Shown: piece by piece, positions 1-1,975 of the stretch
Layout of the letters: every line of letters begins with the position of its first letter
Position numbering within the stretch: position 1 is the first letter of the stretch
Source: Candidatus Saccharimonadales bacterium
GTDB lineage: Bacteria; Patescibacteriota; Saccharimonadia; Saccharimonadales; UBA4665
Length of the DNA stretch: 64,000 bases
Assembly (NCBI GenBank): GCA_036388415.1
Contig: DASVRW010000002.1
Coordinates: 248,001-312,000 of the forward strand
Direction: 5' to 3'
Made by a program: the position numbers and the translations under genes
The notes under the pieces: generated by a model
What the model was told of the DNA's origin: nothing
What the model saw: the letters and a program-made list of their open reading frames with translations, nothing else
Databases searched by the model: none

Positions 1-30
1 GAAACATCAGTATATAAACATAAGAAGCTT

Positions 31-60
31 GGCTACCCCTAGTTGATGTACTTCGTAACT
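31..60 (-). repeat. 30-bp gene-flanking repeat, copy 1
   Basis: First of four imperfect copies of a 30-bp sequence (others at 515-544, 1200-1228 and 1449-1478). On the plus strand it begins GGCTACCCCTAGTTGA and ends CTTCGTAACT. It lies 1 nt beyond the stop codon of the Nudix gene, on its 3' side, as the other copies lie at or near the 3' ends of their neighbours. On the minus strand it contains AGTTG and CAACT as a short inverted repeat around a 10-nt spacer. Confidence 0.85.
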
Positions 61-61
61 T

Positions 62-451
62 TTAAAGTAGACATTTCGCAGCAACTTTAAATTTGTCTGG
101 TAAATCTAAGTTATAAAAATCATCGAAATTGATCCATTCGAAAGAACTGTGCTCATGGCTAATTGCTGTCGCATCGCCGTAATATTTTGTTGAGTAGAAC
201 AAAGTTAATATATATGCAGGACTTACTTCAGTTGATGCGTGTATTATGGTAGCCGTATTGATGTCAATCGACGTCTCTTCTTTGATTTCACGCAGTACTG
301 CTGTATTAGGATCTTCCTTGTGTTCAACTATCCCTCCAGGTAAATCCCACTTCCCTGGCCTGATTCGCGCAGTGTCGGATCTTTTGAGTATGAGAACTCT
401 CCCAGCATCATCTGTGATAAAACATTTTGTTACTAGGTTTATATTATTCAT
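62..451 (-). CDS. Nudix hydrolase
   Basis: A 129-residue Nudix-family pyrophosphohydrolase. The Nudix box is visible at residues 40-62: G40, five residues, E46, seven residues, then R54-E55-I56 and the Mg-binding E58-E59. The final box glycine is replaced by serine (S61). Family members cleave nucleoside diphosphates linked to another group, for example oxidised dNTPs or NDP-sugars. The sequence does not reveal the substrate, although WDLPGGIVEHKE resembles MutT-like house-cleaning enzymes. Length is normal for a single-domain Nudix protein. It is the last of four small minus-strand genes separated by copies of a 30-bp repeat. The surroundings are AT-rich and accessory-looking, so acquisition is possible. 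Confidence 0.9.
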   Translation of the reverse strand: MNNINLVTKCFITDDAGRVLILKRSDTARIRPGKWDLPGGIVEHKEDPNTAVLREIKEETSIDINTATIIHASTEVSPAYILTLFYSTKYYGDATAISHEHSSFEWINFDDFYNLDLPDKFKVAAKCLL

Positions 452-514
452 TCAGTAACTATAGCAAAAAGACTGCTTACTGCTTAATAAGAAGTCTTTA
501 AGCATAATCAATAT

Positions 515-544
515 GGCTACTCCTAATCGACGTACTTCGCAACT
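515..544 (-). repeat. 30-bp gene-flanking repeat, copy 2
   Basis: Second copy (plus strand GGCTACTCCTAATCGACGTA, then CTTCGCAACT). It overlaps the end of the P-loop gene: the last six codons (VAKYVD) and the stop are written in the repeat. The other copies would encode nearly the same tail (VAKYVN) but stand outside their genes. The gene may therefore have acquired its C-terminus from the repeat. Confidence 0.85.
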
Positions 545-1005
545 ATTTCCAAGATCCTATCGACAGTTTCGTTGATTGAGAGATCTGAATTATCAATAAC
601 ATATCCGAAGCTTGGAGATGCAATACCCGTATCGTAATGGTATTTAACCCTAGATACTTCCCACTCCGAAAGTTTACGGTTTCCTCTAATGCCCTGTGCT
701 ATTTCTAGCCGGGGAGCAAGAGTAATGACAATTTGTGGCTTTGTGTGTATCTCATTCTTAAAACGAATAAAATCCTCAGGCCTTATAACATAATTCGCTA
801 CTACGTCTTTACCTTCATTTGAGTATTCGTTGATTGTAGCAATGGCGAGATCCATTGACTTGTCTAAATCAGTAGCAAGATTGAAATTTGGAATAGTATC
901 GTTCAGATCATCTACATTTATTAAAGCTGCATTGATGCGATCGGCGAGTGCATTTGATGTAGATGTCTTACCGGAATTGATGCTACCTGATATAAAAATT
1001 AGCAT
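523..1005 (-). CDS. P-loop kinase-like protein
   Basis: A 160-residue small nucleotide-binding protein. A Walker A loop is clear at residues 7-14 (GSINSGKT), following a short hydrophobic strand (MLIFIS). An LINVDDLND stretch near residues 28-36 sits where nucleoside and shikimate-type kinases bind their acceptor. R/K-rich residues 100-120 could form a lid. The overall layout resembles the AAA_33, chloramphenicol phosphotransferase or adenylylsulfate-kinase-like group. The substrate cannot be named. The upstream region is very AT-rich (TATTATATAG just before the start). The last residues lie inside repeat copy 2, as described there. It belongs to the repeat-punctuated small-gene array. Confidence 0.7.
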   Translation of the reverse strand: MLIFISGSINSGKTSTSNALADRINAALINVDDLNDTIPNFNLATDLDKSMDLAIATINEYSNEGKDVVANYVIRPEDFIRFKNEIHTKPQIVITLAPRLEIAQGIRGNRKLSEWEVSRVKYHYDTGIASPSFGYVIDNSDLSINETVDRILEIVAKYVD

Positions 1006-1042
1006 AAACTATATAATATCATCAATAAACTAATATGTATAC

Positions 1043-1070
1043 TGCTTATGCTCGACTAGGACGGAGGGAT
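1043..1070 (-). repeat. Decayed copy of tRNA-Gln 3' end (att-like)
   Basis: The 28 bp here match 25 of 28 bp of 1891-1918, which hold the last 18 nt of the tRNA-Gln gene (including the CCA) plus 10 nt of its 3' flank. The mismatches alter the CCA and acceptor positions, so this is a non-functional remnant. A partial direct repeat of a tRNA 3' end about 850 bp from the intact tRNA is the usual footprint of an integrative element. No integrase gene lies between the copies. Confidence 0.65.
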
Positions 1071-1159
1071 AGTGCACGTCAATCTATGCGCCGTGCTGCG
1101 CTCGGGCATGAGACTGACGACCGAACCTCGTTCATTGAATCCCGGCACTCGAACCAGGA

Positions 1160-1198
1160 TATGAAAAAGCTCCAAGCGTTGCCTGGAGCTTTTTCATA
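1160..1198. terminator. Strong bidirectional terminator hairpin
   Basis: A perfect 15-bp inverted repeat (1160-1174 and 1184-1198) with a 9-nt loop. It reads AAAAAGCTCCA on one side and TGGAGCTTTTT on the other, so a U-run follows the stem in both directions. It lies just downstream of the 62-residue gene and repeat copy 3 on the minus strand, and would end that transcript. Confidence 0.85.
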
Positions 1199-1199
1199 C

Positions 1200-1228
1200 G
1201 GCTACCCCTAGTTGACGCACTTCGAACT
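1200..1228 (-). repeat. 30-bp gene-flanking repeat, copy 3
   Basis: Third copy, 29 bp, with one base deleted (TTCG-AACT instead of TTCGCAACT) and one substitution. It lies 1 nt beyond the stop of the 62-residue gene on the minus strand. Confidence 0.8.
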
Positions 1229-1229
1229 T

Positions 1230-1418
1230 TTATATCTGAGAACAGTCAGCCTCAGATACATTATCAATGAAATATTGTAGAGCTGGGCTAGTGATTAGAG
1301 CTTTCTGTATTTCTTCGTCTGTTGGTCGTTCAGAAGTTTTTGAAACTAGAGCAAACACATGATCGTGATCAATACTTTCCCCTAATGGGTTGTTCGTCAG
1401 TGCTTCATAAAATGTCAT
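1230..1418 (-). CDS. Small hypothetical protein (62 aa)
   Basis: I do not recognise this 62-residue protein. It is acidic and soluble-looking, with no membrane segment, and starts MTFYEALTNNPLGE. The region before the start is AT-rich, with no clear Shine-Dalgarno sequence. It stands between repeat copies 3 and 4, so it is one unit of the small-gene array. A strong terminator lies downstream at 1160-1198. That it is a real gene is inferred from its placement, not from homology. Confidence 0.5.
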   Translation of the reverse strand: MTFYEALTNNPLGESIDHDHVFALVSKTSERPTDEEIQKALITSPALQYFIDNVSEADCSQI

Positions 1419-1448
1419 AATAATACAATAACATTAATAATGATATTT

Positions 1449-1478
1449 GGCTACCCCTAGTTGACGTACTTCGCAACT
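1449..1478 (-). repeat. 30-bp gene-flanking repeat, copy 4
   Basis: Fourth copy, closest to consensus (plus strand GGCTACCCCTAGTTGACGTA, then CTTCGCAACT). It lies 56 bp beyond the stop of the 86-residue gene, on its 3' side, and just upstream of the 62-residue gene. Confidence 0.85.
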
Positions 1479-1534
1479 CTCAGTGACTGTATCAATCTAA
1501 GGAAAAATTAATTCCTATTAGAATCTATCTGATT

Positions 1535-1795
1535 CTAGAGTAGTCCACGAGCCTGTTTGTTCCTGAAGTATTCATCGTCGATGATGTCTATCGAACCTAT
1601 TACTGATAATTGAGGGGCAGATGTATAACCGGTGAAGATAGGCGGCGCCTTCGGCTGAGGCGGGTAAAAGCCTTCATATTGGCGGTCTTTTGGAGATAAA
1701 TCCTCAGCTTCGTCGTCCATGCCCCATGCAGCACTGCATTCTATCTCGCCAAAATCTGGTAAACTGCTGTTTAATTGTCGTTCATACTTAGGCAT
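1535..1795 (-). CDS. Small hypothetical protein (86 aa)
   Basis: An unrecognised acidic protein, rich in proline around residues 42-55 (YEGFYPPQPKAPP). A start 17 codons further upstream (1846) is open. The start at 1795 (MPKYERQ) is preferred because AGAGGAAG, a good ribosome-binding site, lies about 8 nt before it, and because the upstream codons fall inside a palindromic promoter at 1820-1846. No domain or membrane segment is visible. It is the first unit of the repeat-punctuated array next to tRNA-Gln. Confidence 0.6.
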   Translation of the reverse strand: MPKYERQLNSSLPDFGEIECSAAWGMDDEAEDLSPKDRQYEGFYPPQPKAPPIFTGYTSAPQLSVIGSIDIIDDEYFRNKQARGLL

Positions 1796-1819
1796 GTTGT
1801 GTGCTTCCTCTGCTAACAA

Positions 1820-1854
1820 ATGGTAATTATACCTTATAATTACCATAATAGCAA
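1820..1854 (-). promoter_or_regulatory. Promoter with overlapping perfect palindrome
   Basis: On the minus strand TTGCTA (1849-1854) and TATAAT (1826-1831) are separated by 17 bp, a good sigma-70-type promoter for the 86-residue gene. A perfect 12-bp inverted repeat with a 3-nt loop (1820-1846, arms ATGGTAATTATA and TATAATTACCAT) covers the -10 box and most of the spacer. It could be an operator for a dimeric repressor. No regulator gene is adjacent. Confidence 0.6.
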
Positions 1855-1900
1855 TAGCAGTCTAATCGATCCGAATGAACCAACAAATTATGCTTATGCT

Positions 1901-1975
1901 TGGCTAGGGCGGAGGGATTCGAACCCCCGAATGCCAGTACCAAAAACTGGTGCCTTACCACTTGGCGACGCCCTA
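1901..1975 (-). tRNA. tRNA-Gln (TTG)
   Basis: A complete cloverleaf on the minus strand. The acceptor stem is TAGGGCG/CGCCCTA, the anticodon stem CCAGT/ACTGG with loop TTTTGGT (anticodon TTG), and the T stem GGGGG/CCCTC around TTCGAAT. The discriminator is G and the CCA end is encoded. A decayed copy of its 3' end lies at 1043-1070, so this gene may have been an integration target. Confidence 0.95.

Follow-up and report, generated by a model that had tools for sequence, protein, structure and literature searches.

We consider it likely, with a probability of roughly 0.78, that large serine recombinase (LSR) elements of Saccharibacteria integrate at the 3' ends of tRNA genes, and that small gene cassettes carrying the same end have been moved in trans. 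Both the mobility and the catalysis are inferred, and no experiment supports them as yet. The system would then probably be integron-like but built on a serine recombinase, with cassettes that are, or once were, mobile, which again is an inference that remains untested. The stretch of DNA analysed (the window, 64,000 nucleotides) corresponds to G000:C2:248001-312000 of a 1.14-Mb genome, designated G000.

Four copies of a conserved repeat are found on the minus strand of the window, at positions 30..61, 514..545, 1199..1230 and 1448..1479, and these are 78-94% identical to one another. A 25-base degenerate consensus matches the window at exactly these four sites, whereas none is expected on the basis of 100 shuffles. 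The first three copies end in AGGGG-TA-GCCA, AGGAG-TA-GCCA and AGGGG-TA-GCCG, respectively, and the fourth reads GAGTTGCGAAGTACGTCAACTAGGGG-TA-GCCA, which we interpret as a putative 26-nt half-site followed by a core dinucleotide and GCCA. The original prediction had described four repeat copies, each in the same orientation and each at or near the 3' end of a small minus-strand gene, and all of these claims held, with every position exact; the four ORFs are at 62-451, 523-1005, 1230-1418 and 1535-1846. Its rule of one gene to one repeat held only in part, because a noncoding unit at 1053-1198 separates the 62-aa unit from the kinase unit. An AGTTG/CAACT inverted repeat, also reported there, is present but not conserved among 109 copies. 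Its 5-bp stem is complete in only 10 of them, pairing is no better than in shuffled sequences (0.56 of cells paired, versus 0.573), and the suggested folding of copies as hairpins uncovered no conserved feature. A likeness of the repeat to the tRNA-Gln 3' end, touched on only in passing, held and proves to be the key feature.

The gene for tRNA-Gln(TTG) resides at 1901..1975 on the minus strand (ARAGORN, with an Rfam tRNA match), and its 3' end reads ...CGCCCTA-G-CCA. We propose that this gene is the target (attB) of the adjacent array, hereafter array A, although this assignment is inferred from sequence alone. Units were defined in the orientation of their genes, such that each begins just after a CCA and runs to the next repeat. 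All units described here lie on the minus strand. Cassette 1 (1448..1900) starts with AGCATAAGC immediately after the CCA of the tRNA and carries an ORF of 86-103 aa (1535-1846) with no Pfam match, plus a repeat. It is followed by cassette 2 (1199..1447), comprising the 62-aa ORF (1230-1418) and a repeat, and then by the noncoding unit (1053..1198). Cassette 4 (514..1052) pairs a repeat with a kinase-like P-loop protein (523-1005) that yields weak Pfam matches to Zeta_toxin and AAA_18, and cassette 5 (30..513) pairs a repeat with a Nudix hydrolase (62-451; PF00293, E=6e-18). The array continues past the edge of the window, to G000:C2:~246729, and includes six repeat copies in all, two of which are located just beyond the window. 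This anatomy is shown directly by the data.

The noncoding unit contains a terminator-like hairpin, a structured stem and a degenerate copy of the tRNA-Gln 3' end (ATCCCTCCGTCCTAGTCG). It is shared with array A of a second genome of the genus, G001 (77% over 198 bp, preceding repeat included), and with G019. The stem exhibits compensatory changes in 4 of 15 pairs, and the window copy matches no Rfam family above chance. Related short noncoding units were observed at window 1053-1198 (-) and at loci L212, L213, L035, L093, L094 and L149, either within arrays or, in G000 and G001, directly behind tRNA-Gln(CTG). They share a terminator-like hairpin, an invariant GGTTCGGTC and a stem, and most also include a copy of a tRNA 3' end. 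Such a unit looks like the T-arm of a tRNA whose loop has taken up a structured insert.

Repeats in G000 are confined to two arrays, one behind each tRNA-Gln gene, the second array holding eight copies behind the other gene (CTG). With a profile built from 35 copies, strong copies in five genomes of the genus were found only behind tRNA-Gln genes, and none was evident outside the tRNA arrays. Repeat arrays occur in 19 of 93 genomes of the family (12 genera) and in 34 of 393 genomes of the order (27 genera, several families). In relatives they reach ten units, most of which consist of one small gene plus a repeat. A check proposed at the outset, that further copies should each stand behind a different gene, was therefore positive at the level of genus, family and order. 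An exact repeat pattern also matched two Saccharibacteria metagenome-assembled genomes, UBA5148 and UBA5152 (our G002 and G001, respectively, judging by their matching coordinates), and a search of viral contigs returned no match to either the repeat or the LSR.

Among the 71 units shorter than 2.6 kb, the median length is 680 bp. The repeat has the same orientation as the longest ORF in 61 of these units, and in 39 the stop codon is no more than 35 nt from the repeat. The cargo is varied: 60 cassette proteins fall into 38 Pfam families, mostly with a single member, including Nudix (5), Exo_endo_phos (2), HAD, GNAT, FMN reductase, signal peptidase, SET, HNH, RelB and others. Units also tend to start alike, with AGCATAAGC or its complement at the unit start for 39 of 111 repeats (35%), compared with 60 of 10,500 control stretches (0.6%). 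The complement is GCTTATGCT; throughout the order, roughly one unit in three has one or the other after the CCA, with window examples at 1892-1900 and 1044-1052. These motifs may represent the other arm of an attachment site or a promoter element.

The key feature of the repeat is that its columns 27-32 correspond to nucleotides 71-76 of the tRNA. When the two are compared in the same register, identity rises from 13 of 85 copies at nucleotide 70 to 77 of 85 at nucleotide 71. The dinucleotide at 71-72 matches in 71 of 85 copies, compared with 19.6 expected from shuffling the tRNA ends between the 31 arrays (p<=1e-5). Given that each repeat was paired with the nearest tRNA on the same strand, correct or not, these counts are conservative; given that the arrays are related, the p-value is only a guide. 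The dinucleotide is TA at tRNA-Gln(TTG), CA at Gln(CTG), GA at Asn and CT at Trp, and one copy near tRNA-Arg(TCT) carries GT. The corresponding six-base ends are TAGCCA or CAGCCA at Gln, GAGCCA at Asn and CTGCCA at Trp. Within the Gln/Asn subset, column 27 alone carries the signal, and position 71 is mismatched in 4 of 53 copies. In G029 and G121 the tRNA-Gln(TTG) has C71 and the repeats likewise carry C, and therefore the repeat follows the base rather than the anticodon. Positions 73-76 of the repeat tolerate changes. One caveat is that our first repeat profile contained Gln-type ends, and so could favour such copies. That the core of the repeat is coded by the tRNA is nonetheless shown. The layout of the repeat is also reminiscent of a T-stem, loop and acceptor (5+10+5+7 nt, then GCCA). 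We rejected mimicry of a tRNA-like RNA, however, because the T-stem-like stem is not conserved across the order, and only the tRNA end is retained as evidence.

These data bear on a passive origin, in which the copies would be REP-type intergenic repeats or products of local duplication, and units would move by homologous recombination. In favour of this view, the copies are alike, and the G001 array includes a near-identical internal duplication of 171 bp (98.8%) that begins at a repeat. Against it stand the lack of strong copies outside tRNA arrays in the five genus genomes, the fixed orientation, the ends coded by the adjacent tRNA and the wide spread over families. We regard passive spread as all but excluded, and the simple local duplication that had been offered as an alternative is contradicted by the tRNA-coded ends.

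A candidate enzyme for the favoured reading, integration by an LSR, is found in three genomes of the genus (G001, G002 and G003), where an element lies between tRNA-Gln and the first repeat. This element encodes an LSR of ~510 aa, whose gene runs antisense into the tRNA, together with an HUH Rep gene (PF23343). In G001 and G002 the tRNA overlapped in this manner is the same tRNA-Gln(TTG) that precedes array A. The protein exhibits Resolvase (PF00239, E=4e-17) and zinc-ribbon (PF13408, E=1e-5) domains, a Recombinase domain just below the cut-off (PF07508, E=4e-4) and an N-terminus (...ARVST) as in serine recombinases. Antisense overlap with a tRNA is evident for most LSR members. At the level of the order, members of this LSR family overlap tRNA-Gln, -Asn or -Trp, and more distant ones also tRNA-Gly or -Arg; the targets of the system are tRNA-Gln, -Asn, -Trp and possibly -Arg. 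The simplest form, in G074, consists of tRNA-Asn, the LSR, 5.3 kb and one repeat.

The repeat accompanies a particular group of these enzymes. LSRs with at least 44% identity have a repeat within 10 kb in 13 of 13 genomes, and for those with 42% identity or less, no repeat was present within the stretches read. Seven of the 13 genomes were found through the LSR alone. The tRNA was readable in six of these, and there the repeats end in nucleotides 71-76 of their own tRNA, with the exception of one degenerate copy of ten in G279. Repeats near these LSR-first loci score well above shuffled sequence with a 26-column profile from which the tRNA-matching bases were excluded. The repeat-linked LSRs form one tree group (support 86/83, 82% of bootstraps, 0 of 500 shuffles), and the existence of this repeat-linked clade is shown. 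That its members catalyse the integration is inferred.

No LSR of the clade is found beside either tRNA-Gln of G000, where the nearest relative (33-35% identity) is at a tRNA-Gly, and several other repeat-bearing genomes likewise have no detectable cognate LSR. Given the absence of a clade LSR, the G000 arrays resemble CALINs, and they may now be immobile, in the manner of integrase-less integron arrays. The relative in G000 (G000:C2:622846-624294; L059 14840-16390) overlaps tRNA-Gly(GCC) and has a run of small genes (Nudix, HAD, GNAT) alongside. This candidate was rejected, as it has neither a repeat of this kind nor an array-like repeat family.

Several features of the LSR loci are recorded here as separate observations. 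At L036 (17664-19202), and also at L035, L039, L099 and L127, the LSR frame terminates within the tRNA on the opposite strand. In G002 the tail of the protein is ...NWLGRRDSNPRMPVPKTGALPLGDALM in the integrated state and ...NWQTLVDVLRIFTKTQSQLCVVQFHHA in the predicted free circle, and therefore integration may alter the LSR C-terminus. Beside its HUH Rep gene, the G001 element (L035 15181-16994) has genes for a cytosine methyltransferase-like protein and for a probable endonuclease.

An alternative is that a tyrosine recombinase, either the chromosomal Xer or an integrase since lost, inserts the cassettes through a 6-bp overlap equal to tRNA nucleotides 71-76. The identity block is indeed 6 bp long and would fit such an overlap, every well-assembled genus genome has one Xer-like enzyme, and known tRNA-targeting islands use tyrosine integrases (PMC4383910). 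However, the array loci examined revealed no tyrosine recombinase, the changes tolerated at positions 73-76 speak against a 6-bp overlap, and the repeat goes with a single LSR clade, with some repeats coming to light only once the LSR had predicted them. We judge this alternative very unlikely. Model TIGR02249 for IntI scored above its cut-off in 0 of 5 genus genomes, with Xer-like matches only, and the attC R-box core (GTTRRRY) was not seen in the repeat, albeit without a dedicated attC model. Membership among integrons was therefore rejected for want of IntI and a conserved hairpin. The original suggestion of a gene-cassette array that lacks attC sites and belongs to another recombination system is thus supported, and its guess of a tyrosine recombinase is not, given the single Xer-like enzyme per well-assembled genus genome and a repeat that tracks the LSR clade.

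We propose that the repeat is one half of the attachment site of an LSR that would integrate circular DNA at the 3' end of a tRNA gene. In gene orientation, the putative half-site would comprise an arm of 26 nt (consensus AAGTTGCGAAGTACGTCCACTAGGGG), then a core dinucleotide identical to tRNA nucleotides 71-72, and lastly the discriminator base with CCA. An autonomous element would consist of an LSR gene that extends antisense into the tRNA, in many cases a gene for an HUH Rep protein, then cargo, and a repeat at the far end; its leading end would rebuild the tRNA 3' end, and the repeat would mark the other junction. The small units, each with promoter, gene and repeat and mostly a single ORF, would carry the same trailing half-site and be inserted in trans, mainly beside the tRNA, such that a one-way cassette array grows.

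The cuts made by serine integrases flank a 2-bp core, which has to be the same in the two sites (PMC3936721). A core at nucleotides 71-72 would explain why the repeat matches the tRNA only from base 71 onward and why it changes with the tRNA, and the tRNA would stay intact because the incoming DNA supplies the discriminator and CCA. Since a TA core is symmetric, orientation at tRNA-Gln(TTG) must be kept in some other manner, for example by selection for an intact tRNA; we infer that an inverted insertion would spoil the tRNA and be selected against. The match at 71-72 is interpreted as a 2-bp core common to target and element, and both the exact cut and the action in trans on cassettes are inferred. 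Likewise, crossover at this site and movement of single-gene units as circles rest on no sequencing reads, experiment or observed circular form.

Comparison of relatives bears on the inferred movement of units. At a single chromosomal locus whose flanks are conserved, the arrays of G000, G001 and G002 differ. The Nudix cassette of the window (30-513) has a homologue in another context in G002 (68% over 516 bp), and the homology runs from repeat to repeat, ending at a repeat on both sides. A two-unit block is common to G001 and G002 at 84%, and breaks in homology coincide with unit boundaries. In G003, tRNA-Gln(TTG) shares its neighbour on one flank, and no repeat lies within 1.5 kb downstream of it. 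Whole units are therefore shared or absent at one locus, which is the gain and loss that had been put forward as a check. In addition, repeats score lower the further they lie from the tRNA (mean rho -0.37, p=0.002, 19 arrays), as expected if insertion occurs next to the tRNA. The sharing of whole units and the decay of repeats away from the tRNA are shown.

A further rival holds that the small units were never singly mobile, and are decayed LSR islands that accreted behind the tRNA, lost the recombinase and kept a cargo gene, by analogy with SCC or the ssrA islands of Dehalococcoides. Tandem LSR elements do exist (two LSRs 14 kb apart in G374), one unit (L161, 12485) holds an LSR remnant, and accretion with decay is the published reading of ssrA islands (PMC3146451). 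However, a trace of LSR or Rep is present in just 1 of the 71 units under 2.6 kb, unit genes are oriented opposite to LSR genes, and the same single-gene units recur between genomes with exact ends. Moreover, the starts of LSR elements are unlike the AGCATAAGC/complement starts that are so much more frequent in units (35%) than at random (0.6%). We consider decayed islands unlikely, and cassette movement is the probable, though not proven, explanation.

The arrays resemble integrons and CALINs in their tandem short units with mostly one ORF and one site, their single orientation and varied cargo, their growth beside a fixed primary site and their occurrence without a nearby recombinase (PMC8618304). 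Tandem gene-plus-site units in one orientation, one of the criteria for integrons, are thus present. In contrast to integrons (IntI, attI, attC), the arrays go with a serine rather than a tyrosine recombinase, the site combines a 26-nt arm with a core coded by the tRNA and has no conserved hairpin, and the 3' end of an essential tRNA gene serves as the primary site. In the ssrA islands of Dehalococcoides, an LSR (DsiB) likewise lies beside the 3' end of a gene for a tRNA-like RNA, insertions are in tandem, and a short conserved motif precedes direct repeats of the RNA gene end (PMC3146451). However, those are whole islands inserted in the T-loop of one tmRNA gene, whereas the Saccharibacteria junction is at nucleotides 71-72, several tRNA families serve as targets and the cassettes are mostly ~0.7-kb and single-gene. 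The ssrA islands have been likened to the staphylococcal cassette chromosome, SCC (PMC3146451), which through them also resembles the present system in enzyme type and tandem growth. In SCC, an LSR (CcrA/B) acts at the 3' end of a conserved gene, rlmH, and yields tandem elements with direct repeats, but the elements are large, occupy one protein gene and form no array of single-gene units. These two systems are defined by DsiB inserting at ssrA or Ccr at rlmH, a criterion that the Saccharibacteria arrays do not satisfy. Genomic islands of the Islander type share the target, a tRNA 3' end restored by incoming DNA, but known cases use tyrosine integrases. We found no precedent for a serine-based integron, or for integrons in Saccharibacteria or CPR bacteria, in the open-access literature searched, which excluded subscription journals and preprints.

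A bolder reading, towards which we lean only slightly, is that of a 'serine integron', an independent gene-capture system in which the LSR clade would insert promoter-bearing single-gene cassettes in order behind tRNAs, with nucleotides 71-72 serving as the address that chooses the array. Hitherto, a single enzyme, the tyrosine recombinase IntI, has been associated with gene cassettes, and tyrosine integrases with integration at tRNA genes. The single-gene arrays described here accompany serine recombinases located at the ends of tRNA genes, and their hosts are ultra-small bacteria in which little is understood about the uptake of genes. Should it be confirmed, the system would represent a second way to evolve an integron, would provide natural orthogonal serine att sites coded by tRNA, and would offer a map for locating accessory genes in Saccharibacteria.
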